A DNA stretch of 51,970 nt, from positions 1-51,970 of the forward strand of contig CAMWLJ010000011.1 of assembly GCA_947175055.1 (NCBI GenBank). Reading direction: 5' to 3'. The notes beneath the pieces were generated by a model that had not been told where the DNA came from, made no database searches, and saw only the letters and a program-made list of their open reading frames with translations. The position numbers were made by a program, and so were the translations under genes. Source of the stretch: an uncultured Lachnospiraceae bacterium (GTDB lineage Bacteria; Bacillota; Clostridia; Lachnospirales; Lachnospiraceae). Of the stretch, positions 5,903 through 47,460 are shown in pieces; positions within the stretch are counted from its first letter, which is position 1; the number at the start of each line of letters is the position of its first letter.

Positions 5903-5971
5903 ATTTACCTCCATTCCGAAGCGTTTTACGCTGAGGACGCGAGCAGAATTTCAGATTCTGCTCTGCTCATC
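5903..5971 (-). repeat. R1 repeat copy a, ends in ribosome-binding site
   Basis: Minus strand copy of the R1 family. It starts with GATGAGCA, contains the hairpin AGCAGAAT-CTGAA-ATTCTGCT, and ends with GCTTCGGAATGGAGGT followed by AAAT and the ATG of the lipoprotein gene. Inner hairpin and 3' end recur at 47387-47460; the 3' end recurs at four more places. Confidence 0.8.
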
Positions 5972-6065
5972 ATCATTTACTATAACTCAACGCGCTTCTG
6001 CCCGATCCGCGCAGCACAAGTTCCTCTCCGGCTGTGCCGCCCTATTGTCTTTTACATTGTTTCTG

Positions 6066-6116
6066 AACACCCATATCCTACATTATGATATCACCATGAA
6101 TAGAAGTGGGTGTTTA
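6066..6116 (-). repeat. R5 repeat copy a with inverted end
   Basis: The plus strand reads AACACCCATATCCTACATT, also found at 18514-18534 and 50128-50151. Here it is closed by an inverted TGGGTGTT (6107-6114), which pairs with the AACACCCA end. It lies between the MMPL and lipoprotein genes in the 320-bp gap 5903-6222, which holds R1, R5 and R4 and no gene. Confidence 0.65.
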
Positions 6117-6200
6117 GAAAATTACGCACACAAAATCGGAGATTTTGGCGCGTTCACGGAGTCCGCAGTGTAATGCGTACTCCTGATTGACAGGATATTT

Positions 6201-6286
6201 CTACAGTAAACTTACATCATGCTCAGCCTGCCGTCGGGCGGGCCGCATGGCCATCCATGCTATGAAAGTCGAAGACTTTCATAGTA
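6201..6286 (-). repeat. R4 repeat copy a, overlaps the 3' end of the MMPL gene
   Basis: Minus strand copy of R4. It opens with a hairpin CTATGAAAGTC-GAA / TTC-GACTTTCATAG type palindrome (6261-6286), then the GGATGGCCATGCGGCC core, ending CATGATGTAAGTTTACTGTAG. The 56 bp at 6201-6256 match 18541-18596 with three differences. The core also matches the tandem copies at 51839-51970. Confidence 0.8.
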
Positions 6287-8316
6287 ATAATTCTGTCAAA
6301 TACCATGAACATGGATGGCAGAATAAAAATAACCGATACCATGCTGACAAGCGCTCCTCTTGCCATCAAAGTGCACAGGGAACTGATCATGTCAATGTTG
6401 GAATAAAGCCCCACGCCGAAGGTCGCCGCAAAGAAGGACAGTGCACTGACAACGATCGATTTCACACTGCTTTGGCACGCGATCGCGACAGCCTCCTTCC
6501 TGGACATCCCTCCATACCGCTCCTTCCTGTATCTGGTCGTCATCAGGATCGCATAGTCTACCGTTGCGCCCAACTGGATTGTTCCAATGACAACCGACGC
6601 GATGAAGGGAATCTGTGTTCCCGTATAATAAGGAATCCCCATATTGACAAAAATTGCCATCTCTATGACCGATACCAGGATCACCGGCAGTACTGCCGAT
6701 TTAAACACCAGGAAGATTATGACGAAAATAACCCCGATAGACACCACACTCACTGTCTTGAAATCCTGATCTGTGATCTCGATCAGATCCTTCGTACAGG
6801 GCGCTTCCCCCACTAACATTCCCCGGCTGTCATAGGATTTGCAGACAGCACTGATCCTGCTGCACTGGTCATTGACTTCCTCCGATGCCACCTTGTACTG
6901 AGACCCGATCAGAAGAAGCTGCCAGTTGTCGCTCTCGAGAGCGCCTTTCAAGCTGTCCGGGATCATCTCCTCCGGGATCATATCCCCTTTGACGGCATTC
7001 AGGCCCAGCACCCAATTTACCCCGTCAACAGCCTGTAGTTCCTCTGTCATACTCTTCACCTCCCTTCCCGGAAGGTCGGCACTCAGCAAAAGCATATGTG
7101 TCGCATTCATATCGAATTTCTCATTCAACTTGTCATTTGCTATGATGCTGGCGAGATCCTTCGGCAAGGTCTCATCCAGGTTATAATAGACTTTCGTGTT
7201 TCGATACCCGAAAATGGCCGGAAACAGCATTGCCGCAAATAACAGAATAAAAACCCTGTAATGCCTTGTCACAAATTCTCCTATCCCTTGCAGATCGGGA
7301 AGCAGCGCTTTATGCTTCGTCTTCTCCAAGGCTTTGTCAAACACCAGGATCATGGACGGCAGAATCGTCACGCAGGTGACTACACCGAAAACAACCCCCT
7401 TGGCCATTACCACTCCCAGATCCATTCCCAAAGTAAAACTCATAAAGCACAATGCAATGAAACCGGCCACTGTCGTTAGTGAACTGCTCACCACGGATGT
7501 AATGGTCTCACCGATCGCTTTCGCCATTGCCTCCTTGTTATCAGCAGCCTCCGGGATTTTTTCCTGATAGCTGTGCCATAGGAAAATGGAGTAATCCATC
7601 GTCACTCCCAGCTGCAGGACCGCACTGAGCGCTTTGGTGATATAGGAGATCTCTCCCAGGAAAATATTGCTGCCCAGGTTGTATAAAATTGCCATCCCGA
7701 TACTCAGAAGAAACAGAAAGGGAATGAGGAAAGAGTCCATAGTCAGCGACAATACCAGGCAGGAAAGCAAAACCGCAATGCACACATAGATCGGCGCTTC
7801 TTTCTCCGAAAGATTCTTCGTGTCGGTCACTACTGCCGACATGCCACTCAGAAAACAGCTGCGGCCGGCTACCCTGCGGATATCCTCTATGGCCTCCATC
7901 GTTCCATCGGCAGATGTGGTCTCATCAAATATGATCGCCATCATAGTCGCATCACCGCTGTTAAATGCCCTGTAGATCTCCTCCGGCATCATCTCCATCG
8001 GAGTGGAGATATCCATGACCGTATCATACCAGACTACTTTCTCCACATGCTCGATCAGCTCGATCTCTTCCTTCAGTCTCACGACCTCCTTAGCCTCCAT
8101 ACCTTCCACGATAAACATGGAAAATGCTCCTGTCCCAAATTCCTCCACCAGGATATCCTGTCCCACCATCGTCTCGATATCTTTCGGAAGGTAAGAGAGG
8201 ATATCGTAATTGACCCTGGTCCCCACATATCCTAAAAAAGACGGAATAAGCAATACAATGCTTATGAGCAGGATCGGTATCCTAAACTGTACTACCTTTC
8301 TACCAAATTTTTCCAT
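6223..8316 (-). CDS. MMPL/RND family transporter
   Basis: A 697-residue membrane exporter with two MMPL halves. Each half has one N-terminal helix, an extracytoplasmic loop of about 140-200 residues and a five-to-six helix bundle (for example LSAVLQLGVTMDYSIFLWHSY in the first half, GTIQLGATVDYAILMTTRYR in the second). The paired GVTMDY and GATVDY motifs carry the Asp-Tyr pair expected of proton relay in this family. Substrate unknown. GTG 8325 is possible, but AAGGAG fits ATG 8316 with an 8-nt spacer. The last 17 or so codons, MKVFDFHSMDGHAARPTAG, lie inside repeat R4, so the native 3' end has been replaced. Divergent tetR and a shared operator imply repression by that regulator. Confidence 0.92.
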   Translation of the reverse strand: MEKFGRKVVQFRIPILLISIVLLIPSFLGYVGTRVNYDILSYLPKDIETMVGQDILVEEFGTGAFSMFIVEGMEAKEVVRLKEEIELIEHVEKVVWYDTVMDISTPMEMMPEEIYRAFNSGDATMMAIIFDETTSADGTMEAIEDIRRVAGRSCFLSGMSAVVTDTKNLSEKEAPIYVCIAVLLSCLVLSLTMDSFLIPFLFLLSIGMAILYNLGSNIFLGEISYITKALSAVLQLGVTMDYSIFLWHSYQEKIPEAADNKEAMAKAIGETITSVVSSSLTTVAGFIALCFMSFTLGMDLGVVMAKGVVFGVVTCVTILPSMILVFDKALEKTKHKALLPDLQGIGEFVTRHYRVFILLFAAMLFPAIFGYRNTKVYYNLDETLPKDLASIIANDKLNEKFDMNATHMLLLSADLPGREVKSMTEELQAVDGVNWVLGLNAVKGDMIPEEMIPDSLKGALESDNWQLLLIGSQYKVASEEVNDQCSRISAVCKSYDSRGMLVGEAPCTKDLIEITDQDFKTVSVVSIGVIFVIIFLVFKSAVLPVILVSVIEMAIFVNMGIPYYTGTQIPFIASVVIGTIQLGATVDYAILMTTRYRKERYGGMSRKEAVAIACQSSVKSIVVSALSFFAATFGVGLYSNIDMISSLCTLMARGALVSMVSVIFILPSMFMVFDRIITMKVFDFHSMDGHAARPTAG

Positions 8317-8339
8317 GGCATCCACTCCTTTTCAATTAA

Positions 8340-8398
8340 TGACCATTAGTCATTTTTATCTTTACTTAGTATTATATGCAAAAATGACTAATGGTCAA
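8340..8398 (-). promoter_or_regulatory. MMPL promoter embedded in a doubled TetR-type operator
   Basis: A perfect 18-bp inverted repeat, TGACCATTAGTCATTTTT (8340-8357) and its complement (8380-8397), is separated by 22 bp. Each arm contains its own palindrome TGAC-N5-GTCA. On the minus strand TTGACC (8393-8398), a 16-bp spacer and TATAAT (8371-8376) form a strong promoter, with the distal arm covering the -35 box and the proximal arm covering the start region. This is the likely binding site of the adjacent TetR protein. Confidence 0.85.
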
Positions 8399-8446
8399 TA
8401 TTCTATTTGCAAAGAATTCTTAAAAAATTATAAACTCTAAAAACAA

Positions 8447-8475
8447 TTGGACTTTTCAGACAAGTATTCTATAAT
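8447..8475 (+). promoter_or_regulatory. SigA-type promoter for tetR
   Basis: Plus strand TTGGAC (8447-8452), 17-bp spacer, TATAAT (8470-8475). Start near 8482, about 45 nt before the tetR ATG. It lies outside the operator arms, so tetR may be less tightly self-controlled than the transporter operon. Confidence 0.75.
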
Positions 8476-8527
8476 GGGATTACCTTCATCGACAAGGACA
8501 CTCTTATATAAAGGAATTTGAGAAATC

Positions 8528-9145
8528 ATGGGAAAATCTGATCTGAACAAACAAAAAAAGCGGGAGGCTCTTCTGAACACCGCTTTTGAATTATTTACCA
8601 CCCAGGGGATCACGAGGACGACCATCAACAACATCGTGGAAGCCGCCGGTGTGGCAAAAGGAACTTTCTATCTCTATTTTAAAGACAAATATGATATTCG
8701 AAATAAACTGATCGCCCATAAGGCCAGCCGCATTTTTTCCGTCGCGGACGACGCGCTTTCCAAAACACAGCTGACCGAATTGGACGATCGGATCATTTTT
8801 CTTGCAGACAATATCATCGAACAGTTCAATGCCGACAAATCGCTGCTCGGCTTTATCTCTAAGAACCTGAGCTGGGGGATTTTTAAAAATGAGCTGATCT
8901 CCTCCGGCGGCAGTTCCGATGTGGACTTCTATAATATCTATACTGTCCTGGAGAATTCACCCAGATCCTTCAAGAATCCGGAAATCCTCCTGTTTATGAT
9001 CGTTGAATTTGTCAGCTCCACCTGTTACAGCTCCATTCTGTACAATGAACCCACCGATATCGAAACGCTGAAACCTTACATCTTCGATGCGATCCGGCAG
9101 ATCATCAGGAGTCAGGAGCTCGATCCCGATGCTTACTTGAAATAG
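8528..9145 (+). CDS. TetR/AcrR family transcriptional regulator
   Basis: A 205-residue regulator. The N-terminal helix-turn-helix covers about residues 10-57 (ALLNTAFELFTTQGITRTT, then AAGVAKGTFYLYFKDK), the standard TetR signature. The rest is an alpha-helical ligand-binding domain without clear relatives visible by eye. It is divergent from the MMPL transporter and most likely binds the doubled palindrome at 8340-8397. ATG 8528 has AAGGA about 12 nt upstream. Its last 13 bp overlap the 3' end of purL on the other strand, so neither gene has room for an intergenic terminator. Confidence 0.93.
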   Translation: MGKSDLNKQKKREALLNTAFELFTTQGITRTTINNIVEAAGVAKGTFYLYFKDKYDIRNKLIAHKASRIFSVADDALSKTQLTELDDRIIFLADNIIEQFNADKSLLGFISKNLSWGIFKNELISSGGSSDVDFYNIYTVLENSPRSFKNPEILLFMIVEFVSSTCYSSILYNEPTDIETLKPYIFDAIRQIIRSQELDPDAYLK

Positions 9146-12100
9146 CTCACCCCGGACTCGAAGATCTTCATATCCTGTTCTCCGTAGATGTTGACAGCCA
9201 CGCCGTCCCCTCTTCTCTCCGAATGCGCCATCTTACCCAGGCAGCGTCCGTCCGGAGAGGTTATGCCTTCGATCGAAGCGTAGGACCCGTTGATGTTCCA
9301 CTCCTCATCCATGGAAATATTGCCCGCAGGATCTGCATACTGCGTCGCCACCTGTCCGTTTGCAAACAGCTTGTCGATCCACTCCTTCGGTGCGACGAAG
9401 CGTCCCTCACCGTGGGATGCCGGGTTTACATAAGTATTCCCCAGAACCGCTCCCTGCAGCCAGGGCGACTTATTGGAAACCACTTTCAGGTATACCATCT
9501 TGGAGATATGACGGTTCACCGTATTAAAAGTCAGCGTCGGCGAATCTTCTTTCTGCCCTCTGATCTCACCGTAAGGAACCAGCCCCAGCTTGATCAGCGC
9601 CTGGAACCCGTTACAGATCCCCAGCGCCAAGCCGTCCCGCTCCTGCAGCAGACGCGTGACTGCTTCTTTCATCTTTTCATTCTGAAATGCAGTGGCAAAG
9701 AACTTGGCGGAACCATCCGGTTCGTCACCCGCCGAGAAGCCGCCGGGGAACATGATGATCTGCGCCTGTGAGATGGCTTTCTCGAACACATCCACACTCT
9801 CCCTTATATCCGCTGCCGTCAGATTCTTAAACACCTTGGTGGTCACGTCAGCACCTGCCCGCTCGAAGGCTGCCGCACTGTCATACTCACAGTTGGTGCC
9901 CGGGAAGACAGGGATAAAGACGGTCGGTCTTGCAACTTTATGTTTACATACATAGATATCTTTCGCTTCATACAGATCGGAAGCTACGGCACACTTATCC
10001 TTGCCGGCTGTATACGGGAATACCTTATCCAGCTTCCCGGTCCATGCACTAAGAGCCTCCGCCATGGTGATCTGCACATCCCCGTAAGCGAATGCGGGCG
10101 CCTCGGTAACCGTTCCGATCACCGTGTACTCCAGACCCGTCCCTTTCTTTGCCGTCGCCGCCAGTTCTTCCACAGCCTCCGCCGGCATCTCCGCCACGAT
10201 CTCACCAAGCCCGTTATCAAAAAGTGCCTCTGCCGCAAGGCCGCTTTCCACCGTCACGCCCAACTGATTGCCGAAGGCCATCTTGCCGAGTGCCGCCGCC
10301 ACACCTTTGGCATCCAGCGCGTAGGCCGCCGTGATCTTCTTGTCAGCCATCAACGACAATATGCCGTCATATACTTTCAGCACGTCTTCATAGACCGGCA
10401 GGTCATACTGGTCTTTCCTGATGTGGAAACGCACCAGTTTATCCCCGGCTTTCTTCAGTTCCGGCGTCACCATGTTCTGCTGCCTGCTGATATCCACCGC
10501 AAAGGAAACAAGCGTGGGCGGCACATCAATATCGTTGAACGTGCCGGACATGGAATCCTTACCGCCGATGGAAGGCAGCCCGTATCCCATCTGCGCATCG
10601 TAGGCACCCAGAAGCGCCGCGAAAGGCTGGCTCCAGCGGCCGGGCTCTTCACTCATCCGCCGGAAATATTCCTGGAAGGTAAATCGGATCGTCTTATGAT
10701 CCCCGCCGTTTGCCACGATCTTGGCCATGGACTCCGTCACTGCATAGATCGCGCCGTGGTATGGGCTCCAGCTGGACAGATAGGGATCAAAACCGTAACT
10801 CATCATCGTCACGGTATCGGTCTTTCCTATTAACACCGGCAGCTTAGCGACCATCGCCTGCGTCTCCGTCAGCTGATACTTACCGCCGTAAGGCATATAG
10901 ACGCTGCCTGCACCGATGGAAGCATCGAACATCTCCACCAGTCCCTTCTGGGAGCAGACATTCAAGTCACCGAGTAAGGCAAGCCATGCCTTCTTCACAT
11001 CACCTTCTGCTACGGCCTGCGCCACCGCAGGAGTCGCGATCTTACGCAGGTAGTTATCCTTCTCTTCCGGCATATCCACACTGACGGCTGTCTCCTGATG
11101 CGCCCCGTTGGTATCTAAGAAGGCTCTTGCGATATTCACGATCTGTCTGCCGCGCCACTTAAGAACCAGTCTCGGTTCCTTCGTCACCACCGCGACTTCC
11201 ACTGCCTCCAAGTTCTCCTCTGCAGCATAGCCTAAGAAAGCATCCACATCCTTGGGCGCAACAACAACAGCCATACGCTCCTGGGATTCGGAGATAGCCA
11301 GCTCCGTACCGTCTAAGCCCGCATATTTCTTAGGCACCTTATCCAGATCCACCACCAGACCGTCCGCCAACTCCCCGATGGCAACCGACACGCCGCCTGC
11401 ACCAAAGTCATTGCATTTCTTGATCAGCCTGCTCACTTCCTCCCGGCGGAACAATCTCTGTATCTTGCGTTCCGTGGGCGCATTTCCCTTCTGCACTTCT
11501 GCGCCGCAGGTCTCAATAGAGCTCTCCGTGTGCACCTTGGAAGATCCCGTGGCCCCGCCGCAGCCGTCACGTCCCGTCCTACCGCCTAAGAGAATAATCA
11601 CATCATCCGGATCGGAAGTCTCACGGATCACGTTCTTCCGCGGCGCCGCTCCCATGACCGCGCCAATCTCCATCCTTTTCGCCACATAATCGGGATGGTA
11701 GATCTCCTTCACCAGCCCCGTCGCCAGACCGATCTGGTTGCCGTAGGAAGAGTAACCGCTGGCCGCGCCGCGCACCAGCTTCTTCTGGGACAATTTGCCC
11801 TTCAACGTATCGGCCACCGGCACCGTGGGATCCGCCGCACCCGTAACACGCATCGCCTGATATACATAACCGCGTCCGGAGAGCGGATCGCGTATCGCAC
11901 CGCCCAGACAAGTAGCCGCACCACCGAAAGGCTCAATCTCCGTAGGATGGTTGTGGGTCTCGTTCTTAAAGAACACAAGCCACTCCTCGGTCACCGGCCC
12001 CTCGCCATAATCCATCTCCACCGGCACCACCACCGAGCAGGCATTGATCTCGTCAGACTGCTCCATGTCCTCCAGTTTGCCGTCTTTCTTCAACTTGCGC

Positions 12101-12948
12101 ATCGCCATCAACGCCAGATCCATCAGGCAGACGAACTTGTCCTGCCTGTCCCCGAAGATCTCCTGTCTGGTAGCCAGATAGTCCTCATAAGTTTTCCGGA
12201 TCGGCTCCGCGTAATATCCCTCTCCGAACGTAACCTCTTTCAACTCTGTAGAAAAAGTCGTATGGCGGCAGTGATCCGACCAATAAGTATCCAATACACG
12301 GATCTCCGTCATCGTCGGATCCCGATGCTCCTCCGCCTGAAAATAACGCTGTATATGCTGGAAATCCTTAAAGGTCATGGCCAGCCCCAGGGACGCATAC
12401 AAGGCTCTCAATTCCGCCTCCGCCATGTCCTTAAATCCCGTAAAGACAGACACATCCGCCGGTTCCTCATAGTCAGTCACCAGTGTATCCGGCTTCACCA
12501 TATCCGTCTGCCTAGAATCCACCGGGTTGATGCAGTAAGCCTTGATCTTCTCGAACTCCTCATCAGAAATAACACCCGTTATAAGATAAGTGACCGCCGT
12601 TCTGATAAGCGGTTCCTCATCCTCCTTCAAAAACTTCACACACTGTACCGCAGAATCTGCCCGCTGGTCAAACTGCCCCGGCAAGTATTCCACGCTGAAC
12701 ACCCTGCCATCTTCCGGGATCTCGATCGTTTCTTCATATAAAATATCGACCGGCGGCTCTGAAAAGACCGTCCTGCATGCCTTCCCATACACCTCTTCTG
12801 AAAGATTCTCCACATCGTAACGGATAAACACGCGGACATCCTGCACTCCGCCGATCCCCAGATAACTTCCGATCTCCTCTTTCAGTTCCCTCGCCTTAAC
12901 CGCAAAAGGCTCTTTCTTCTCCACATAAACCCGTTTCACGTTTCCCAT
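9133..12948 (-). CDS. purL: Phosphoribosylformylglycinamidine synthase, long single-chain form
   Basis: Catalyses FGAR + glutamine + ATP to FGAM in purine synthesis. At 1271 residues, it fuses the synthetase and glutaminase parts that are separate proteins (PurS, PurL, PurQ) in Bacillus; the long form is known in Clostridia. Visible motifs are FKNETHNHPTEIEPFGGAAT, the GGRTGRDGCGGATGSS loop, and a C-terminal glutaminase with PGGFSAGDE, Cys in LGICNGFQ near residue 1115, and a His/Glu pair in ASHGEGRF. The open frame extends to 12999, but GGAG precedes ATG 12948. The gene stands alone, about 27 kb from purEMND. Its 3' end overlaps tetR by 13 bp. Confidence 0.95.
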   Translation of the reverse strand: MGNVKRVYVEKKEPFAVKARELKEEIGSYLGIGGVQDVRVFIRYDVENLSEEVYGKACRTVFSEPPVDILYEETIEIPEDGRVFSVEYLPGQFDQRADSAVQCVKFLKEDEEPLIRTAVTYLITGVISDEEFEKIKAYCINPVDSRQTDMVKPDTLVTDYEEPADVSVFTGFKDMAEAELRALYASLGLAMTFKDFQHIQRYFQAEEHRDPTMTEIRVLDTYWSDHCRHTTFSTELKEVTFGEGYYAEPIRKTYEDYLATRQEIFGDRQDKFVCLMDLALMAMRKLKKDGKLEDMEQSDEINACSVVVPVEMDYGEGPVTEEWLVFFKNETHNHPTEIEPFGGAATCLGGAIRDPLSGRGYVYQAMRVTGAADPTVPVADTLKGKLSQKKLVRGAASGYSSYGNQIGLATGLVKEIYHPDYVAKRMEIGAVMGAAPRKNVIRETSDPDDVIILLGGRTGRDGCGGATGSSKVHTESSIETCGAEVQKGNAPTERKIQRLFRREEVSRLIKKCNDFGAGGVSVAIGELADGLVVDLDKVPKKYAGLDGTELAISESQERMAVVVAPKDVDAFLGYAAEENLEAVEVAVVTKEPRLVLKWRGRQIVNIARAFLDTNGAHQETAVSVDMPEEKDNYLRKIATPAVAQAVAEGDVKKAWLALLGDLNVCSQKGLVEMFDASIGAGSVYMPYGGKYQLTETQAMVAKLPVLIGKTDTVTMMSYGFDPYLSSWSPYHGAIYAVTESMAKIVANGGDHKTIRFTFQEYFRRMSEEPGRWSQPFAALLGAYDAQMGYGLPSIGGKDSMSGTFNDIDVPPTLVSFAVDISRQQNMVTPELKKAGDKLVRFHIRKDQYDLPVYEDVLKVYDGILSLMADKKITAAYALDAKGVAAALGKMAFGNQLGVTVESGLAAEALFDNGLGEIVAEMPAEAVEELAATAKKGTGLEYTVIGTVTEAPAFAYGDVQITMAEALSAWTGKLDKVFPYTAGKDKCAVASDLYEAKDIYVCKHKVARPTVFIPVFPGTNCEYDSAAAFERAGADVTTKVFKNLTAADIRESVDVFEKAISQAQIIMFPGGFSAGDEPDGSAKFFATAFQNEKMKEAVTRLLQERDGLALGICNGFQALIKLGLVPYGEIRGQKEDSPTLTFNTVNRHISKMVYLKVVSNKSPWLQGAVLGNTYVNPASHGEGRFVAPKEWIDKLFANGQVATQYADPAGNISMDEEWNINGSYASIEGITSPDGRCLGKMAHSERRGDGVAVNIYGEQDMKIFESGVSYFK

Positions 12949-13163
12949 GCTGCTTTCTCCTTTAATGTTGTTCTGCCCCTGTCCTTGCTGCCATAGCATA
13001 TCCCGTTGTCCTGCCGCTCCATTCCTTTGTGCCCGTGCTTTGTCTCACCCGCGCCCTGTCCGCCTTCGCCGCAAATGTTACATGTTTTGATGCCCGAGCT
13101 GCCCTCATATCACGAATGCCAAAATGCGAATAGATTCACTGAATGAAACCCCATGTCTTTTTT

Positions 13164-13229: not shown

Positions 13230-13282
13230 TTACTTCTCCCCCCTCCCGCTGCTTCCTGGCAGTCTGTTTGGAAATTCTGTCA

Positions 13283-13330: not shown

Positions 13331-13373
13331 CTTTATCCAACTATTCAATTCACCGGATTCCTTCTTTGTCGGC

Positions 13374-14448: not shown

Positions 14449-14454
14449 ATTAAT

Positions 14455-14498
14455 CCCCCATTCTTGCTCAGTCTGCAAATTTGGGCGCAAGCACAAAT
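14455..14498 (-). repeat. R2 repeat copy a, ends in GGGGG ribosome site
   Basis: A 44-bp element matching 46555-46598 with three differences. On the minus strand it contains AAATTTGCAGACTGAG and ends in AATGGGGG, seven nt before the kinase start codon. A partial copy (2911-2926) precedes the zinc-ribbon gene. Confidence 0.8.
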
Positions 14499-14507
14499 CA
14501 AAGCCCC

Positions 14508-14547
14508 TCTGCAAGCAGCCACCCGGCTCATTGCTCGCAGAAATAAA
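14508..14547 (-). repeat. R3 repeat copy a
   Basis: A 40-bp element matching 51157-51196 with three differences. Minus strand: TTTATTTC then GCGAGCAA, GAGCC and GGCTGCTTGCAGA. Joined directly to R2 here. A shorter inverted-orientation copy is at 27431-27453. Confidence 0.75.
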
Positions 14548-18513: not shown

Positions 18514-18604
18514 TAAACACCCATATCCTACATTTTACTTCTACAGTAAACTTACATCATGCTCAGCCTGCCGTCGGGCAGGCCACATGTCCATCCTAGT
18601 AATA
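18514..18604 (-). repeat. R5 plus R4 repeat block upstream of the MATE gene
   Basis: R5 (TAAACACCCATATCCTACATT-type, 18514-18534) is followed within 6 bp by R4 (18541-18604), giving a contiguous element. In the MMPL region the same two parts are separated by about 115 bp. The R4 part lacks the CTATGAAAG hairpin. This block and the downstream terminator fill the gene-free stretch 18450-18792. Confidence 0.75.
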
Positions 18605-19932: not shown

Positions 19933-19970
19933 CTATATGTCTCCGTTATGCTGTTAGCTTTTCGTTTTTA

Positions 19971-20054
19971 CCTCCATTCCGAAGCGCCACAAACTCTAAC
20001 TGAACTTGTTTCGTTTGTTGAACTAAATTGCTCATCAGAGAATTTATTCAACCT
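19971..20054 (-). repeat. R1 repeat copy e (84 bp), not followed by a gene start
   Basis: Matches 42923-43006 with about seven differences over 84 bp. It starts AGGTTGAATAAATTC on the minus strand, which includes the TGA stop of the DUF3781 gene, and ends GCTTCGGAATGGAGG. The ATG inside the end opens only a seven-codon frame, so this copy does not start a gene. The sigma-G promoter of spoVAD lies 39 bp further on. Confidence 0.85.
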
Positions 20055-20299
20055 TTTTCCTTATGAGCCGTAATGATCGTATAACTATACGCATTTACCG
20101 TTATAATACAATTATCTACCTTTACATACCAATTTTTCCCGTTTCGTATAATAACAGCATTAGCAGAATTGATTTCTGTTTTACACCAGTCAACCACATC
20201 ATCTGTATCTAAAGACAGGTTTCTTTTAATACGATTTATGCCTAATTCGGTTGTATGTAATTTATCTAAATTCTTTAGTAACTCATTATCTGCATTCAT
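20048..20299 (-). CDS. DUF3781 family protein
   Basis: An 83-residue protein of unknown function. NLDKLHTTELGINRIKRNL, DDVVDWCKTEI, GKNWYVKVDNC and TVNAYSYTIITAHK match what I know of DUF3781, a small family widespread in gut Firmicutes. ATG 20299 is chosen because GGAGG lies 5 nt upstream; the frame to 20311 overlaps that site. The gene is more A+T rich than its neighbours. It is sandwiched between two R1 copies, one providing its ribosome site and the other its stop, which suggests a recently moved cassette. An extended -10 (TGATATAAT, 20440-20448) may serve it. Confidence 0.75.
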   Translation of the reverse strand: MNADNELLKNLDKLHTTELGINRIKRNLSLDTDDVVDWCKTEINSANAVIIRNGKNWYVKVDNCIITVNAYSYTIITAHKEKG

Positions 20300-20304
20300 T
20301 GAAT

Positions 20305-20360
20305 CCTCCATGCCAAAGCAGCTTTTGCAAAATCAGCACATCAGTATGATTGTTCAACCT
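20305..20360 (-). repeat. R1 repeat copy f (diverged)
   Basis: Minus strand starts AGGTTGAACAATC, contains TGATGTGC, and ends GCTTTGGCATGGAGG, with the DUF3781 ATG 5 nt later. The ends fit the R1 family; the middle has diverged. Confidence 0.55.
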
Positions 20361-26495: not shown

Positions 26496-27062
26496 TCAAA
26501 CGTGTGCTGACGATGGCTCTTCCTTCCCAAGGATCAGCTTCAGGCACTCTCTGCCCCGCTGCATCCTCTTCTTCACCGCATGAAGGGTGATGCCCAGCAT
26601 CTGCGCGATCTCCGCCGCCTTATACCCCTCTATATAGTGCAGATAGACCACTGTCTTAAGCGGATCCGGCAAGTTCATCAGTTCTGCCAGAACCTCACTC
26701 TGTTCCGGAAATTCACAATACTGATCCACATCTTCCCATTGTACCGAAGGATGCCTGCTTCTGCCCCGATGCACATCCATACACCGATTAGTCGCTACCC
26801 GGATCAGCCACGCCTTCTCATGCTCTCTGTTCCGAAACCCTGCCGAATGCTCCATATAGCTGCAGAACGTGTCCTGCACCGCATCCTGGGCGTCCTGCTC
26901 GTTACATAACAGGACCATACACACCCTGAAAAGCATGTCACCGTATTCCATGACCGCCTCTTCCACATTCAACTGCATGTTACCGCGTTCTTTAACCGTT
27001 TCTTTCACTTTCAATTGCATGTCACCGCGTTCCTTAACCGCTTCTTCCACTCTCAACTGCAT
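26496..27062 (-). CDS. ECF-type RNA polymerase sigma factor with triplicated N-terminus
   Basis: A 188-residue sigma-70 family factor. Region 2 includes CNEQDAQDAVQDTFCSYM and WLIRVATNRCMD. Region 4 is LPDPLKTVVYLHYIEGYKAAEI with helix-turn-helix to AVKKRMQRGRECL. Before region 2 stand three 14-residue repeats beginning MQLRVEEAVKERGD, MQLKVKETVKERGN and MQLNVEEAVMEYGD, where a normal ECF has one. Each repeat begins with an ATG. The best ribosome site, GGAGG with 4-nt spacing, fits ATG 27062; the TTG at 27083 is unlikely. It is paired with the membrane protein downstream. Confidence 0.88.
   Translation of the reverse strand: MQLRVEEAVKERGDMQLKVKETVKERGNMQLNVEEAVMEYGDMLFRVCMVLLCNEQDAQDAVQDTFCSYMEHSAGFRNREHEKAWLIRVATNRCMDVHRGRSRHPSVQWEDVDQYCEFPEQSEVLAELMNLPDPLKTVVYLHYIEGYKAAEIAQMLGITLHAVKKRMQRGRECLKLILGKEEPSSAHV
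26937..27062 (-). repeat. Three tandem 42-bp repeats inside the ECF sigma gene
   Basis: Units 27021-27062, 26979-27020 and 26937-26978 encode 14 residues each and keep the frame. Units 1 and 2 are the most similar. Each unit boundary carries GGTGACATGCA or a close variant, which duplicates part of the ribosome site and a start codon. Confidence 0.9.
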
Positions 27063-27121
27063 GTCACCTCCTGTATCTTTCAAAGTTCACTTTATGTAAA
27101 TCATCGTAACAGTTCAGCCCA

Positions 27122-39865: not shown

Positions 39866-39908
39866 CGTAATCGCTCCCCTTCCCTTTCTTCTACACAAAT
39901 ATTCTGCC

Positions 39909-41186: not shown

Positions 41187-41217
41187 TCCAATATCCTGCC
41201 TTTCTAATGTCTAAATT

Positions 41218-41844
41218 CTACTCCGTTATATGCGCCTGTCCATCTGCCACCGTCACCTTGCCGGCTGCGATCAGGTCGAGACACTTGGGCAGGATCACCC
41301 ACTCCGCCTCTTCCATGACCCGTCTTTGCAGACTCTCCGGCGTATCACCATCCCTGACGGCCACGGCCTTCTGCATCAGAATGGGCCCCGTATCTGTCCC
41401 TTCATCCACGAAATGTACCGTAGCACCGGTCACCTTGACCCCTCTGTCCAGAGCCGCCTCATGCACCTTGAGCCCGTAATAGCCCGTACCACAGAAAGCT
41501 GGGATCAGTGACGGATGGATATTGACGATCCGATTCTCATACCGCCTGATCAGCTCCGGCGGTATCACCACCAGAAATCCCGCCAGCACGACCAGATCCG
41601 GAGCCGCCTCCTCCACTTTCCGTAATAACGCTCTGTTGAATTGTTCTCTATCCGCATAATCCCGGGGTGACACGCAGACTCCCTCAATACCGGCCTGCTC
41701 TGCCCGCTTTAGGGCATAAGCCTTCTTATTATTACTGATCACCCGCACAATCTGTACATTGCCGATCGTTCCCCGGGCTATCCCATCTATGATCGCCTGT
41801 AAATTAGTGCCCCCGCCGGACACACACACCACTATCTTAAGCAT
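41218..41844 (-). CDS. purN: Phosphoribosylglycinamide formyltransferase (folate-dependent)
   Basis: Transfers formyl from 10-formyl-THF to GAR. 208 residues: MLKIVVCVSGGGTNLQAIID, the catalytic Asn-His pair in RIVNIHPSLIPAF, and DEGTDTGPILMQKAV. The frame opens at 41895, where the ATG overlaps the purM stop (ATGA); the additional 17 residues do not belong to the family, so ATG 41844 with GGAAAGG upstream is preferred, though coupling from 41895 cannot be excluded. The family Asp is present in the DEGTDTG loop. Confidence 0.93.
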   Translation of the reverse strand: MLKIVVCVSGGGTNLQAIIDGIARGTIGNVQIVRVISNNKKAYALKRAEQAGIEGVCVSPRDYADREQFNRALLRKVEEAAPDLVVLAGFLVVIPPELIRRYENRIVNIHPSLIPAFCGTGYYGLKVHEAALDRGVKVTGATVHFVDEGTDTGPILMQKAVAVRDGDTPESLQRRVMEEAEWVILPKCLDLIAAGKVTVADGQAHITE

Positions 41845-41891
41845 TTTCTCTATAGCCTTTCCATGCGCGATATACGGCAAAGATCCCATGA

Positions 41892-42917
41892 TCATTGCAG
41901 CACAACGCCTTCACTGCCCGACATCACTTCTCCTACCAGATAAGCCTGTTCTCCGGCAGCCTGCAGCGCATTGACCGTCTGCTGCACATCCGCCGCATCC
42001 ACTGCCAGCACCATACCCAGACCCATATTGTAGGTATTATACATCATCTTCTCTTCCAGGCCCCCCTTCTGCTGTAAAAGCCTGAAGATAGGGGGTATCG
42101 GATAGCTGTCTTTACGAACTGCTGCCATCGTACCTGCCGGCAGCATTCTCGGTATATTCTCATAGAACCCACCGCCGGTGATATGACTGCATCCCTTGAT
42201 GGTCACACCCGCATCGCGCACGGCTTTTAACGCTTTCACATAAATCCTCGTAGGCGTCAGAAGCGTCGCTCCCAGAGTTGCTCCCAATTCTTCATAATAA
42301 GTATCCAGACTCTCCTTCGTCATCTCGAACACCTTGCGCACAAGCGAAAAACCATTGCTGTGAACACCGGAAGAGGCAATGCCGATCAGTGCATCTCCGG
42401 GCCCAATCTGTTCTCCTGTGATCAAATCCTTCTGATCCACCACGCCGACCGCAAATCCCGCCAAGTCATACTCTTCCTCCGGCATCAGACCCGGATGCTC
42501 TGCCGTCTCGCCGCCTACAAGAGCTGCTCCGGCCTGTCTGCAGCCTTCGGCCACACCGCCCACGATCGTAGCGATCTTCTCAGGGTAGTTCTTGCCGCAG
42601 GCAATATAGTCCAGGAAGAAAAGCGGCTCTCCTCCGGCACACACCACATCGTTGACGCACATGGCCACACAGTCGATTCCTACCGTATCATGCTTATCCA
42701 TCAGAAACGCCAGCTTGATCTTCGTCCCTACGCCGTCCGTGCCGGACAATAATACCGGATGTTCCATCTCCTTGATCTTATCAAGACAAAAAGCGCCTGA
42801 AAACCCACCAAGTCCTCCCAGCACTTCCGGCCGCATCGTTCCCTTGACATGTTCCTTCAACAATTCTACCGACTGGTAACCCGCTTCAATATCAACTCCT
42901 GCTGACTTGTAATCCAT
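41892..42917 (-). CDS. purM: Phosphoribosylformylglycinamidine cyclo-ligase
   Basis: Closes the imidazole ring (FGAM to AIR). 341 residues with [54 protein letters not shown] and [16 protein letters not shown], all standard. ATG 42917 follows AGGAGG supplied by repeat R1 copy d. The ATG at 42929 lies in the repeat and is not used. Gap to purE is 175 bp, of which 84 bp are the repeat. Overlaps the possible extended start of purN by 4 bp. Confidence 0.97.
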
Positions 42918-42922
42918 ATTTT

Positions 42923-43006
42923 CCTCCATTCCGGAGCGTCACAAATTCTAACTGAACTTGTTGGGTTTGTTGCACTAAATTGCTCATCAGAGAATTTATT
43001 CAACCT
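42923..43006 (-). repeat. R1 repeat copy d (84 bp) between purE and purM
   Basis: Near-identical to 19971-20054. It starts AGGTTGAATAAATTC, ends GCTCCGGAATGGAGG, and is followed by AAAATATGG where the ATG is purM. It lies inside what should be a pur operon and supplies the purM ribosome site. Confidence 0.88.
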
Positions 43007-43092
43007 TACGACCGTGCTCCTTTTCCGTACTTTCCCGTATCGTGCGGTGATCAAGTTAAGTCAGTACACAACATCTGACATCCTGTTATTCT

Positions 43093-43596
43093 TTATGTAT
43101 AGTTCTTATATCCGACTTCCTGCAGTCTTGCATCCTTCTTCTGCACACTTTCACCCAATTGCCGGGTATAGTCTTTCAGTCTCTGCAAAAGCTCTCCGTC
43201 AGAAGTAGCCAAGATCTTCGCCGCAAGGATACCTGCATTCTGTCCGCCGCCGATAGCTACCGTAGCCACCGGTATACCGGAGGGCATCTGTACGATGGAA
43301 TACAGAGAATCCACACCGCCCAGATCGGAAGTCTTCATGGGGACACCAATGACCGGCATAGGAAAGATTGCCGCACACATACCCGGCAGATGTGCCGCTT
43401 TGCCGGCACCCGCAATGATCACTTTGAATCCTTTCTCCTCTGCCCCCTTTGCATACTCGAAGAATACGTCCGGTTCCCTGTGCGCCGAGATGATCGCCAT
43501 CTCATAAGAAATCCCCAGTTCATCCAAAATATCCGCTGCCTTCGCCATAACGGGCATATCGGAATCGCTTCCCATTACAATACCTACCTGTGCCAT
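43093..43596 (-). CDS. purE: N5-carboxyaminoimidazole ribonucleotide mutase
   Basis: Purine step AIR to CAIR. 167 residues: VGIVMGSDSDMPVM, ISAHREPD, VIIAGAGKAAHLPGMCA and IGVPMKT, typical of class I PurE, which needs PurK; purK is not in the window. ATG 43596 has AGGAGG 8 nt upstream; the ATG at 43602 is too close. First gene of the purE-purM-purN-purD cluster, with a promoter at 43659-43687. Confidence 0.96.
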   Translation of the reverse strand: MAQVGIVMGSDSDMPVMAKAADILDELGISYEMAIISAHREPDVFFEYAKGAEEKGFKVIIAGAGKAAHLPGMCAAIFPMPVIGVPMKTSDLGGVDSLYSIVQMPSGIPVATVAIGGGQNAGILAAKILATSDGELLQRLKDYTRQLGESVQKKDARLQEVGYKNYT

Positions 43597-43658
43597 CCAC
43601 ATGTCCTCCTATCATTCGTTGCTCTCACTCTTCACAACACCGTTTCCATGACGCAATC

Positions 43659-43687
43659 AGTATACCATAATCAAAGCATGAAGTCCA
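43659..43687 (-). promoter_or_regulatory. SigA-type promoter for purEMND
   Basis: Minus strand TGGACT (43682-43687), 17-bp spacer, TATACT (43659-43664) with an extended TGG before the -10. Start near 43652, about 55 nt before purE. No purine riboswitch is seen in this short leader. Confidence 0.6.
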
Positions 43688-43720
43688 TCATAACCGATCC
43701 ATGCATCAGCGCATTCGCCG

Positions 43721-45856
43721 TCACAAAAATGCTTTATTCAGCTCCTCGCATCCCTCCAGTACGAACCGTCCGTCTTGGATGATCACGATCTTATCACCGT
43801 CATGTGTCTGCACTGCCAGTTCTCCAAGCTCGTCATATGGAATCGTGATATCCGTGTGACACTGGAAATATGCCTTACTGACATCCGTATCACGCAAAGC
43901 CGACACTTCATTGTCCTTCGCGATGATCTCTTTACCGTCTTGATTGTACACCCGCACGTTCTCCGCATGGGAATAGCACGTATCTCCCACTGCAAAATGC
44001 GGACCTGTCTTCTCCGCGATCAGGATCGGCATCTTATCCTCGATTCCATACCTGCGTGCCGTCACGTAAGCGGTAGTGTTGGTACCGATCGCAAACTCCC
44101 CAAGCGGCAGCGTATCGTGATGGAACAGCACGTTGTCCTTGATATATTTGCGGTTCTCCTCCTCGGAAAGGAAATTGGCGCATCCATAATCTACGATCAT
44201 TCCGTCTTCGAATTTCAGCCAGATATCCTTAAACTCCAGCTCATTCAAAAATACCCTTGTCACATGCAGAATACCGTCCGTTGCGGCCAGTACCGGAGAA
44301 GTAAACACTTCTCCCACCGGGATATTCACATCCGCCACGCAGTTTTCAAAGTTTGTCTCCCTGTCAGGGTTCTTCAGCTCATGCAGACTGATCTTCAAAT
44401 CCGTCCGGTTAGCGCCGCACCCTTTGACTGCTACGGCCACCCCCTGATCCAACACATCAATGATCTTCTGCTGGATTCCCTGATACAGCTTATAGTCCAA
44501 CGTGTTGATGCGCACGATATCGTCGAAGATCTCCTCATACTGCGCCCCGATATCCGGTACCGGAAAAGCGATGATCGTAAAACTGCGCTCCTCCCCCGGA
44601 ATATATTCATTCTGCAGCATGCCCGCCTTCGAGGCGTACTCCACGGAAAGCTTCTGCTGCTTCTCCGACAATCTGCAGGCCGCCGCCTTCGTCTGCGGCA
44701 CAAAAGGCTTCTCCCCGAAGATCTCCAGCACCGCCGGTCCTCCATGCACTTTCGCCTGCTCCTTATACTGTTCAAAAGCGCCTCTCACACATTCCAGTCT
44801 GCGCTCCACAAGAAGTTTGTCCAGCACCAACGCCAGATCTTCCCGGTGATCATAGTCGAACTGCTTGTTGGGATTGGCTCCGAAATAGCCATTCTTATTG
44901 ACACTTCTGCCCTGGAAAATATTCGTTCCAGAACGATAAATCGTAGATTGCAGACCGATCTGTTCAAAATTATGGACCGCACGCCGGATCATTCGCTCGA
45001 AACCAAGACAGTAACGCACATTTACCGTCTTCTTGATCGAAATATCCTTATTCCCCATGGCGAAACCAATCCGGTATCCTTCCGTGTATGTGTCCGCCAT
45101 CAGTGCGATCTTCTCCTCCGACATCCGGTTAAGATGTGCCGCCGTACGCAGTTCATTTTCCGTCACATACTCGCCGTAATAATACAGATAGCGCAGATCT
45201 GTCAAGTCACTGTCCTTCACGATGCGCAGGGCAAAATCTTTCTCCGGACAGACAAGCTGCGCTATCTTCTCATTGCTCTCCGGCTCATAATAATCGCTCA
45301 CATACCAGTACAGGATCTGCTTTAATTCCTCCGGATCCGGAAACCGATCGGCACCTGCCGTTCCCGCCTGTGCCGTTTCCTCTGCCGAAACGCTATCCGC
45401 CTGCGCTGCGCACAGGCACGCCTGATAAATTTCCAGCAGCAGTTCCATCCGAATCACCATAGCAAACCGGTTCTGTTCAAAAGCTGCGGGGATCATACTC
45501 CGCAGTTCCGCATAGAGAAACGACAGCATCTGCCCGATCGACTCTCCAAGACAATCTACGGCATATTCCGGGTTGGCATAACTTGCATCATAATGTTCCG
45601 GCAAGATGTCCTCATACAGCTTCCTGTTGAAAACCTGCAGCTCATCCATCGTCATCTGCCGCAGCCGCCCGCTCTTCACCACATTCCAAGCTTCCTCCAT
45701 GGAAAGGACAAAGGCTGCCATGGTGCAAAAATACTTCTGCAGACTTTCACCACAGACCTTCTCATCCGGTATCTCCCGGATCCTCTCTATGGCCAGCGCA
45801 AACCGTTCCTCTTCCAGATCATTCCTATCCTCTTCCACAATATATATATCTTCCAT
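43721..45856 (-). CDS. M29-family aminopeptidase with long N-terminal extension
   Basis: 711 residues. The C-terminal 400 residues match M29 metal aminopeptidases (AmpS/PepS): KGCGANRTDLKISL, metal-binding Glu in NIPVGEVFTSP, second Glu in LGEFAIGTNT, His in GPHFAVGDT and the H-x-D pair in CHTDITI. The first 300 residues are helical, charged, and not part of the canonical M29 domain of about 410 residues. They contain SLQKYFCTMAAFV and an Ala/Glu-rich stretch. Intracellular peptide turnover is likely. ATG 45856 has GGAGGT from repeat R1 copy c 6 nt upstream. Confidence 0.88.
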   Translation of the reverse strand: MEDIYIVEEDRNDLEEERFALAIERIREIPDEKVCGESLQKYFCTMAAFVLSMEEAWNVVKSGRLRQMTMDELQVFNRKLYEDILPEHYDASYANPEYAVDCLGESIGQMLSFLYAELRSMIPAAFEQNRFAMVIRMELLLEIYQACLCAAQADSVSAEETAQAGTAGADRFPDPEELKQILYWYVSDYYEPESNEKIAQLVCPEKDFALRIVKDSDLTDLRYLYYYGEYVTENELRTAAHLNRMSEEKIALMADTYTEGYRIGFAMGNKDISIKKTVNVRYCLGFERMIRRAVHNFEQIGLQSTIYRSGTNIFQGRSVNKNGYFGANPNKQFDYDHREDLALVLDKLLVERRLECVRGAFEQYKEQAKVHGGPAVLEIFGEKPFVPQTKAAACRLSEKQQKLSVEYASKAGMLQNEYIPGEERSFTIIAFPVPDIGAQYEEIFDDIVRINTLDYKLYQGIQQKIIDVLDQGVAVAVKGCGANRTDLKISLHELKNPDRETNFENCVADVNIPVGEVFTSPVLAATDGILHVTRVFLNELEFKDIWLKFEDGMIVDYGCANFLSEEENRKYIKDNVLFHHDTLPLGEFAIGTNTTAYVTARRYGIEDKMPILIAEKTGPHFAVGDTCYSHAENVRVYNQDGKEIIAKDNEVSALRDTDVSKAYFQCHTDITIPYDELGELAVQTHDGDKIVIIQDGRFVLEGCEELNKAFL

Positions 45857-45892
45857 ATTTACCTCCATGCCGAAGCAGTCACAAATTCTTGT
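45857..45892 (-). repeat. R1 repeat copy c (3' part)
   Basis: Only the 3' half of R1 remains: AATTTGTGACTGCTTCGGC followed by ATGGAGGTAAAT and the ATG of the aminopeptidase gene. Confidence 0.6.
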
Positions 45893-45954
45893 TTGTATTT
45901 CCTATGAACAATGTGGGATAGTACGCCAACGGACCGTATCAAACACATACGACC

Positions 45955-46272
45955 TCATGCATAAGCACCCGCATACAAAATTGCACTGATCGCCGCCAAC
46001 GCCAGCACATTCAACCCGATTCCCACATAAGTGAACAGATAATACTTATCCCGTTCCGTCTTGGACACCAATCCCAGCCCTATCCCTACAAACGCAAAGA
46101 TCATGACAAGCATCACTGCTGCCCCATACTGTACCGGTACATCTCCCACTCTGCGGTAACTCATAAAAACAGCATACCCCAGCGTCGCCAGCGAGATCAC
46201 GCCCAGGATCGTGGACATGATGCCTTTTTGCGTATGCTCTTTATTCGTAAACATATAGCTGCTCTTTTTCAC
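45955..46272 (-). CDS. Small three-helix membrane protein (DUF6142-like)
   Basis: 105 residues from GTG 46272, which has GGGAG 8 nt upstream; an ATG at 46338 keeps the frame open (127 residues) but has no ribosome site. Three membrane helices: IMSTILGVISLATLGYAVFM, YGAAVMLVMIFAFVGIGLGL and YLFTYVGIGLNVLALAAISA. The sequence YMFTNKEHTQKGIMSTILG looks like a small family I associate with DUF6142, from memory only. Function unknown. It lies 98 bp from the aminopeptidase gene on the same strand. Confidence 0.65.
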   Translation of the reverse strand: MKKSSYMFTNKEHTQKGIMSTILGVISLATLGYAVFMSYRRVGDVPVQYGAAVMLVMIFAFVGIGLGLVSKTERDKYYLFTYVGIGLNVLALAAISAILYAGAYA

Positions 46273-46395
46273 TGCCAAAACTCCCTGTCTATCCACAATT
46301 TTGAAATGGGTATCTTCGTCTTCTCCGAAAACACCCATTTGTTATGAAAGCCACACGCCAAACAGGCGCAGACCTGATCGAATTGTCACCCATAT

Positions 46396-46548
46396 TTAAA
46401 ATAAAATTTTACTTCTACCGGCCAACAGCTTGGCACCGCTGATCAGTAAAAGCACACCGCTGGCCACACCCACTACGAGCGTCACCACACCCACTGCAAT
46501 ATTGAGCGCACCGGAGCCGCCCATCACCTTATAGATTCTCTCTTCCAT
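46396..46548 (-). CDS. 50-residue membrane protein, too short for usual gene calling
   Basis: The frame begins MEERIYKVMGGSGALNIAVG, continues as hydrophobic VVTLVVGVASGVLLLISGAKLL and ends GRSKILF. It forms one long or two short membrane helices with a Gly-rich GGSGALN turn. ATG 46548 has GGGGG 7 nt upstream, donated by repeat R2 copy b exactly as for the kinase-like gene at 14448. Codon use looks coding, stop TAA. Function unknown. Confidence 0.7.
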   Translation of the reverse strand: MEERIYKVMGGSGALNIAVGVVTLVVGVASGVLLLISGAKLLAGRSKILF

Positions 46549-46554
46549 CTTAAT

Positions 46555-46598
46555 CCCCCATTCTTACTCAGTCTGCAAATTTGGTCGCAAACACAAAT
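46555..46598 (-). repeat. R2 repeat copy b, ends in GGGGG ribosome site
   Basis: 44 bp matching 14455-14498 with three differences. It ends in AATGGGGG upstream of the 50-residue gene. Confidence 0.8.
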
Positions 46599-46644
46599 TT
46601 GCGTATGAAAAATCCTGGTCTGCACATTCTCAGGCGCAAGATCT

Positions 46645-47322
46645 TTACTTCGCTCCATACTGCTCATAGTATGCATCGATCGCGCTCTTTAATGCATCGT
46701 CAATATAGATCGTTCCTTTATATGGCTGATTGTATAGGCAGCTCACCACATCTTTCATCGTTACGATAGCACTTGCCTCGAATCCGTACTTCTCCTTGAT
46801 CTCATGCAATGCACTCTTCTCACTGTCCAGTCCTCGCTCCATACGGTTTAAGGATACCATCAGACCCTTGATCTCCACGTCGGCCTGCTGTCTTAAGATC
46901 GGGAAAGTTTCCTCGATCGACTTACCGGAAGTGGTCACATCCTCGATGATCACTACCTTGTCTCCATCTTTCAGTTTGCTGCCCAGCAAAATACCCGTAT
47001 CGCCGTGATCCTTCACTTCTTTCCGGTTGGAACAGTATCTGACTTCCTTCCCATACAACTCGCTGATCGCCATAGTCGTAGCTACCGAAAGCGGAATCCC
47101 TTTATAGGCCGGCCCGAACAGCACGTCGAAATCCAAACCGTAATGATCGTGGATCGCCTTCGCATAGTACTCTCCCAACTTCCGCAGCTGCGCTCCTGTC
47201 ACATAGGCTCCTGCATTCATGAAAAAAGGGGATTTCCGACCGCTCTTTAAAGTAAAGTCGCCGAATTTGAGCACCTGACTATCCACCATGAACTCAATAA
47301 ATTCCTGTTTGTATGCTTCCAT
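46645..47322 (-). CDS. pyrE: Orotate phosphoribosyltransferase
   Basis: Makes OMP from orotate and PRPP. 225 residues: FGDFTLKSGRKSPFF at the N-terminus, FGPAYKGIPLS, RKEVKDHGDTG and the PRPP signature VVIIEDVTTSGKSIEE near residue 125. ATG 47322 with GGAG 6 nt upstream. It is the last gene of the Nudix-pyrF-pyrE unit; the gap to pyrF (129 bp) is filled by repeat R1 copy b. The carAB unit is about 45 kb away. Confidence 0.96.
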   Translation of the reverse strand: MEAYKQEFIEFMVDSQVLKFGDFTLKSGRKSPFFMNAGAYVTGAQLRKLGEYYAKAIHDHYGLDFDVLFGPAYKGIPLSVATTMAISELYGKEVRYCSNRKEVKDHGDTGILLGSKLKDGDKVVIIEDVTTSGKSIEETFPILRQQADVEIKGLMVSLNRMERGLDSEKSALHEIKEKYGFEASAIVTMKDVVSCLYNQPYKGTIYIDDALKSAIDAYYEQYGAK

Positions 47323-47386
47323 CTTATACTCCATTCTTCTCTCTTAACCTGCGGATCTGCTGTCTTCCTGCCGCTTTGCTTATTTT

Positions 47387-47460
47387 GCTCCATTCCGAAG
47401 CGCTTTGCGCGAAGTTTTCCGAAGGAATACTTTCGACGCAGGAGCAGAATTTCAGATTCT
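47387..47460 (-). repeat. R1 repeat copy b between pyrF and pyrE
   Basis: Minus strand begins AGAATCTGAAATTCTGCTC, which includes the TGA stop of pyrF, and ends AGCGCTTCGGAATGGAG. It shares both ends with 5903-5971. A CTTCGGAA/TTCCGAAG pairing lies in its middle. Confidence 0.75.

Follow-up and report, generated by a model that had tools for sequence, protein, structure and literature searches.

R1, a likely mobile repeat with a predicted RNA fold, lying mostly between an older Shine-Dalgarno sequence and the start codon in Lachnospiraceae

The stretch of DNA analysed here (the window) comprises 51,970 nucleotides of contig CAMWLJ010000011.1 from an uncultured Lachnospiraceae bacterium (assembly GCA_947175055.1; the genome as a whole, called G000 below, amounts to 3.47 Mb in 225 contigs and is 81% complete), and contains six copies of a dispersed repeat, R1, to which an earlier note had drawn attention. 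R1 is probably a family of short repeats, predicted to fold as RNA and likely mobile, that lie between the likely original Shine-Dalgarno sequence (SD) of a gene and its start codon and bring a second SD with them, being moved by a putative agent acting in trans. Copies of R1 hold a characteristic position and spacing relative to start codons, show covariation in their predicted helices, occur at junctions that are empty in relatives, and are found as head-to-tail doubles and as a triple; from this we infer that transposition would be the cause, that some enzyme would be its agent, and that the fold might have an effect on translation.

The genome-wide search suggested by the earlier note gave 164 sites in G000 when up to two mismatches to a 16-mer of R1 were allowed, divided 81 / 83 between the strands, as against two sites for the reversed 16-mer; many near-identical short copies within one genome are a trait of miniature inverted-repeat transposable elements (MITEs). 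Placement was assessed in a sample made up of the window together with 20 stretches of 20 kb taken from the six largest contigs and not chosen for the presence of copies (451,970 bases in all), a site being counted as abutting a start if an ATG 4–7 nt away opens, on the same strand as R1, an open reading frame (ORF) no shorter than 60 codons. On this basis 21 of the 27 sites in the sample (up to two mismatches to a 15-mer) abut an ORF start, or 17 of 21 if the window is excluded. Relaxing the search to three mismatches adds 18 sites, three of them so placed, while the reversed control yields 8 sites at up to three mismatches. No common theme was found among the 18 downstream proteins scanned (of 21 in the sample), which include purM, DUF3781, M29, cellulase, MatE, formyltransferase, AMP-binding, RsmB and hexapeptide transferase as well as RecJ, HTH, DHDPS, HAD, phosphorylase, serine dehydratase, GH10, NusB and one unassigned protein.

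The spacing within these starts is also distinctive. GGAGG stands exactly 5 nt before the ATG in 19 of 22 R1-like genes, compared with 7 of 84 other genes of the same sample that have GGAGG 3–12 nt before ATG (range 4 to 12, mode 7–8; Fisher p 2e-12). The 84 control genes were called mechanically as ORFs, and some of their ATGs may be internal. The spacing of 5 is thus a property of R1, and the right end of the repeat is tied to the start codon itself, rather than simply reusing the native SD.

On the left side, an older SD can usually be recognised. A match to the SD that is 4 nt or longer and no more than 16 nt away from the left end is present for 16 of 23 copies in G000, two relatives (G030 and G074) and named records (24 of 115 control windows), and for 26 of 27 copies in further genomes, tandem ones left out (35 of 135 control windows). 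In most cases R1 thus occupies the interval that separates an older SD from the start codon.

Comparison of orthologous gene junctions, another check proposed in the earlier note, shows R1 to be present in some genomes and absent from others, a further trait that it shares with MITE-like repeats. At purM (loci compared from 30 of the 58 genomes having the gene), G000 reads AAAAGGAGCACGGTCGTAA, then the 84-nt R1, then GGAGGAAAATATG, while G074, whose PurM is the most similar (95–96%), reads AAAGGAGTACGATAATAGCTATG with no R1; G030 is likewise without R1 there, and G077 and G001 carry short R1-like ends. The junction at the M29 peptidase gene is empty in G074 (the sole relative compared), which also lacks R1 on the pyrF-pyrE side, and a uridine phosphorylase-like gene (PNP_UDP_1) has R1 in G000 and an empty junction in G030, G074 and G077. 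On contig C7 three junctions (L221:17475, a minimal copy, 16884 and 3025) carry R1 in G000 only, and at a fourth, L221:6430, there is a double in G000, a shorter copy in G030 and nothing in G074 or G077. Among the loci compared there was no ortholog for the sites at window 20305, window 5908 and L078:3801.

Counting the 5-nt spacer, full-length R1 is mainly 138–140 nt long, and there are longer forms of 162 and 180 nt with extra hairpins (the list of lengths has 93 entries, some of them with chance matches at the left). The window copies are of an 84-nt type, short, or left-truncated; left truncation is common in R1 generally, the SD end being retained, and many copies lack most of the hairpins. 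Units occur head to tail in G000, G030 and G074 in a common register (GGAGG-N-AAGGTTG..., then GGAGG-N-AANN-ATG), in one case in G030 as a triple, with a spacing that is often exactly 136 nt and otherwise between 132 and 177. An NTG stands at nt 5–7 in 62 of 68 full-length copies (TTG 39, GTG 19, ATG 4), and is often found about 5 nt past an upstream SD (e.g. at L252 and L221:6430). The frame that it opens runs to the end of the unit in 33 of the 68 (the other two frames in 1 and 6), as against 14% after randomisation of the stems. Among 19 representatives chosen to be less than 80% identical it is open in 6, and in 17 140-mers the three codon positions have 34, 19 and 40 substitutions. A leader ORF in R1 is a possibility and no more, the signal for it being weak once redundancy is removed.

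Evidence for a conserved RNA structure comes from an alignment of 36 copies, the helices having been drawn from these same sequences. In the helices proposed, 96.7% of cells are paired and both sides have changed in 18 of 46 pairs; shuffling, which does not keep the relatedness among copies, matched the observed values in none of 500 trials on four of five measures and in 6 of 500 for pair types, while sliding the helices out of register left 31–45% of cells paired. When copies were folded singly, four full units had z-scores from -4.05 to -8.25, while two short copies from the window scored -1.94 and -2.63. In the second hairpin the loop is complementary to a strand whose last base lies three nt ahead of the SD, and this pairing switches type between genomes (CCGAAGCGT/ACGCTTCGG, CCGGAGCGT/ACGCTCCGG, TCGCAGGCAC/GTGCCTGCGG, TGAGCAA/TTGCTCA). 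The longest loop/tail helix averages 7.9 over 57 distinct combinations as against 6.4 when permuted (reached in 0 of 2000), and 7.9 against 5.9 over 30 combinations from further genomes (again 0 of 2000); it has four pairs or fewer in 3 of the 57, and in the 36-copy alignment its variation is almost confined to one side. A small terminal hairpin has 90% of its cells paired and two pairs in which both sides have changed, and as it shares one strand with the loop pairing the two would be mutually exclusive. In addition, a CCUC segment can pair with the GAGG of the SD in 97% of cells, with no double changes. Scanning with Rfam 15 gave only a tRNA above cut-off in the window and nothing above cut-off for eight loci with full copies; of two sub-threshold matches there (E up to 1), the first lay across from a copy, on the other strand, and the second at another place. 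A hammerhead ribozyme, suggested by the motif CUGAUGAG in the first hairpin, was rejected, Rfam giving no match.

R1 is far from evenly distributed. Within the genus, an 18-mer (up to two mismatches) occurs in 36 of the 37 genomes, the source genome included (the exception being G018, with none), at 200 sites in G030, 142 in G000 and 0–29 in the 35 other congeners, and in 3 of 24 genomes from other families of the order; since the reversed 18-mer gave 3 hits over the same 61 genomes, counts of 1–2 mean little. Searches with a covariance model, run for family and class with stricter filters at which weak matches are lost, detected R1 in 31 of the 200 genomes (30 of the 199 genera) in a sample of the family, again including its own, with at least 16 matches each in seven of these 31, and in 1 of 291 genomes sampled over the class, namely its own. 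An exact 23-mer was found in 33 stretches, belonging to Lachnospiraceae, Eisenbergiella, Parablautia muri or records without a family name; Parablautia muri, a cultured carrier, has a full copy (L135). One 140-nt copy used as query had no match in plasmid sequences, and had partial matches in two faecal phage records that carry no annotation, MT836788.1 (1969-2070) and MT837007.1 (6694-6790), R1-like at 81–82% identity over 65–69% of the query; from these similarities, phages are a possible carrier of R1.

In a further set of genomes, 36 model matches at 30 loci reduced to 33 copies when three second readings of the same place were dropped; these came from 16 genomes, comprising 14 other genera of the family, the congener G083 (4 copies) and G043, of another family (1 copy). 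Here an ATG opening at least 60 codons is present for 31 of the 33, lying within 1 nt of the model end in 29 cases and 3–4 nt past it in two, the exceptions being L273 and a copy with GTG, whose frame reaches the end of the locus after 13 codons. The copy from G043 (L081) differs in its first hairpin and has a similar loop pairing and SD tail; its occurrence implies either that the R1 family extends outside Lachnospiraceae or that it was transferred.

The mechanism proposed for R1 can be set out as follows. A putative enzyme supplied in trans would move R1, itself non-autonomous, into the gap between the likely original SD of a gene and its start codon, parallel to the gene. The original SD would then be stranded at the 5' end of R1, and the repeat's own SD, 5 nt before the start codon, would take over translation; because R1 brings a replacement SD, its insertion need not silence the gene. 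In the transcript the first hairpin would be a long one, the loop of the second would pair with the tail, and a third hairpin would be followed by the small terminal one competing with the loop pairing. Truncated copies would be insertions that afterwards lost their left part. Losing the left side while the right end stays constant is what one would expect both from decay of inserted copies and from reverse transcription that starts at the right end, and the G030 copy at L221:6430, which seems to keep its left edge while lacking the first two hairpins, favours decay. A bolder reading, somewhat less likely than not, is that R1 represents a new kind of mobile element directed at translation starts, in which the native SD would serve the 5' NTG of R1 and a fresh SD would be provided at 5 nt, allowing both the head-to-tail stacking and a low-cost spread through essential operons.

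A number of observations weigh against this account, quite apart from the mechanical origin of the control genes mentioned above. At six of the 27 sites in the sample no ORF of 60 codons or more begins beside R1 (one has an ATG with a 19-codon ORF, one an ATG with 1 codon, one a GTG with 25, and three have no start), and the copies not at such starts include long ones at L065:2046-2207, L062:11985-12100 and L207:1610-1771. Seven of the 23 copies from G000, G030, G074 and named records have no recognisable SD on the left; some sites are shared by descent, as at one junction with the same copy in G000 and G030 (L056/L152); and, the proteins of the relatives compared being about 61–99% identical, no insertion was caught between near-identical strains. 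No target-site duplication is apparent in 55 non-tandem copies (4.05 of 8 positions matching as against 3.91, p 0.16), the match between flanks in the pooled set of 79 (p 0.0002) being owed to 24 tandems; tandems were recognised by motif, which left two or more of them (L222 and L220:1265) counted as non-tandem. An autonomous copy was not found, a right end lying within 260 nt of 86 of the 89 first hairpins in the fetched loci (partly chosen for ends). Finally, the Y1 transposase family PF01797 is unmatched in G000 and G030, both of them drafts and the R1-richest of the 61 genomes scanned with the 18-mer, and is present in 23 of the 61.

An alternative that deserves consideration is that R1 is a cis-regulatory RNA, riboswitch-like or bound by a protein, which controls the translation of a large regulon and has been carried from gene to gene by recombination and selection, with mobility as a secondary matter. 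A conserved covarying structure directly before the SD is indeed what such an RNA would have: the loop-tail pairing is conserved and ends three nt before the SD, the CCUC-GAGG pairing is possible in 97% of cells, albeit without double change, and every copy that stands at a gene does so in its 5' leader. However, the 18 proteins scanned share no function, many copies lack most of the hairpins, doubles and a triple exist, and copy number ranges from 0 to 200 within one genus; taken together these make the regulatory explanation unlikely. It is a good deal less likely still that selection alone is responsible, with R1 landing anywhere and those copies being kept that happen to give a strong SD at a good distance. 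The SD end is the part retained where left truncation is common, and the three long copies away from long-ORF starts are what such a process might leave behind, but near-identical, presumably young full-length copies are mostly at start codons too, in one register, and several of the off-start copies in the 452-kb sample still show the NAANN spacer followed by a damaged start. As to repetitive extragenic palindromes (REPs) moved by a RAYT/IS200-IS605 Y1 transposase, R1 is similarly short, palindromic and high in copy number, and resembles them in the rule that places GGAG beside a hairpin foot, yet with PF01797 unmatched in just the two genomes where R1 is commonest (both drafts, G000 being 81% complete), and found in 23 others, this explanation is very improbable.

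Within the window the six copies, all on the minus strand, lie where the earlier note had placed them, and differ from GCTTCGGAATGGAGG by no mismatch (5903 and 19971), one (42923, 45857 and 47387) or two (20305). Four have a gene start at their right end, with the ATG exactly 5 nt past GGAGG in each case: a left-truncated copy at 5903..5978 (third hairpin, terminal hairpin and SD tail; covariance model 66 bits, E 4.5e-14) before the ATG at 5902; a short variant at 20300..20360, with a weak partial model match (E 0.24), before the DUF3781 gene (ATG 20299); a copy of the 84-nt type at 42918..43007 (E 0.0013), with the older SD AAAAGGAG on one side and the purM ATG (42917) on the other; and a left-truncated copy at 45857..45892, which is not among the model matches listed, before the M29 peptidase gene (ATG 45856). 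The remaining two are away from starts: one of the 84-nt type at 19966..20055 (first hairpin and tail; E 1.3e-5) has ACG at the place expected for ATG, with no ORF found, and one at 47387..47460 (E 0.025) has a degenerate end, GGAGC followed by AAG, contains the pyrF stop and lies upstream of the next gene. With a GGAGG-ATG spacing of 5, an ATG within GGAATGGAGG falls in frame with the true start, and mechanical ORF calls open 12 nt (4 codons) early at 5914, 20311, 42929 and 45868.

Most of what the earlier note had read from these copies is borne out. The two 84-bp copies, described there as more than 90% identical, measure 92–93%; R1 does supply an SD to unrelated genes to which it runs parallel; and, with junctions found both filled and empty, it behaves like the mobile module suggested, neither of the outcomes named beforehand as refuting this (random placement, or junctions all shared by descent) having been seen. 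The downstream genes named there are supported for PurM (Pfam and NCBIfam) and for DUF3781 and the M29 peptidase (Pfam only), and not for the 'MMPL lipoprotein', which has no Pfam match at 1e-5 and for which NCBIfam gives only an xxxLxxG heptad repeat. That R1 begins at gene stops can be seen at DUF3781, whose TGA falls within the GGTTGA of the 19971 copy, and at pyrF, whose TGA is inside the 47387 copy; these are particular cases, the latter in a left-truncated copy, and the idea of an exact fit between stop and start is not supported: the start codon fixes the position of the right end, whereas in full-length copies the left end lies mostly just past an older SD. Four features go beyond the earlier note: the covarying RNA structure, the full unit of 140–180 nt, the existence of tandem copies, and an occurrence that spans several genera.

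A second and related repeat type, R2 (GCAAG-AAT-GGGGG-ATTAAT), which the earlier note had overlooked, occurs on the minus strand at 14449-14498, before a kinase-like gene of the shikimate/homoserine kinase group (ATG 14448), and with the same end at 46549-46598, before a 50-codon ORF (ATG 46548); a third site is L221:18150. Its end is GAATGGGGG or GAATAGGGG, followed by ATTAAN-ATG, and by eye CTTGC could pair with the GCAAG that precedes AAT; folding two single R2 sequences did not give this hairpin. R2 is probably a sister subfamily of R1, the shared architecture having been assigned by eye. Other repeats in the window include a dispersed hairpin-like one, TCTGCAAGCAGCC...GGCTC.TTGCTCGC, at 14508-14547 and 51157-51196 (93% identical over 40 nt), which at L017 and L027 also occurs close to R1; more repeats of the dispersed kind, CAGCCTGCCGTCGGGCGGGCC... 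and CTAAACACCCATATCCTACATT..., at 6196-6256, 18536-18596, 51834-51893 and 51911-51970 and at 6063, 18513 and 50128; and short tandem periodicities of 9 and 42 nt at 1965-2126 and 26922-27068.

Mobile DNA entering the gap between a ribosome site and its start codon would be expected to do harm. If the proposal for R1 is true, targeting of this gap combined with its repair would be a new way for a selfish element to enter essential operons harmlessly, and R1 would have rewired the translation signals of more than 100 genes in one genome, making it a natural system in which to follow the evolution of ribosome-site strength. R1 is in any case a predicted structured RNA family of gut bacteria that the Rfam models used here do not recognise.

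No description of an R1-like element was found in the literature searched, preprints and most subscription papers being outside its reach; mobile/repeat candidates form one class in a survey that looked for RNA motifs in 50 genomes, the accessible part of which does not name one. Nearest to R1 among the systems found are the BOX elements and the Beggiatoaceae TAACTGA repeats, both described below. Among other known systems, the preQ1 riboswitch has an SD-proximal pseudoknot in a 5' leader, and R1 is like riboswitches of this type in having a predicted pseudoknot at the SD within a 5' leader, and unlike them in its up to about 200 copies per genome, its tandems, its unrelated genes and the lack of an Rfam match above cut-off. 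REP/RAYT systems and GTAG/CGTC palindromes share with R1 a high copy number, a palindromic character and a fixed end. According to the part of the source available, REPs are 20–40 bp long, tied to IS200/IS605-type transposases and found mostly near the 3' ends of ORFs (PMC3733652), whereas no such transposase was found in G000 or G030. The TAACTGA direct repeats of marine Beggiatoaceae, in the sections available, number 169 sets, most of which come shortly before a start codon; the ORFs that follow show no functional pattern, and an SD is also present in only about 10% of repeat-bearing intergenic regions (PMC4679880); they resemble R1 in standing before the starts of functionally unrelated genes, and as described there differ from it in being heptamer direct repeats with no predicted structure and little SD character. 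Pneumococcal repeats are reported as over-represented between convergent genes, and the BOX elements of Streptococcus pneumoniae, read by their authors as parasitic, are not described in the portion available as sitting at start codons, delivering an SD or pairing a loop with the SD strand (PMC3049150). Their likeness to R1 is one of design only: as set out in the same portion, BOX elements are modular short interspersed repeats with optional inner modules and a predicted RNA fold, some copies of which lie in 5' leaders (PMC3049150).

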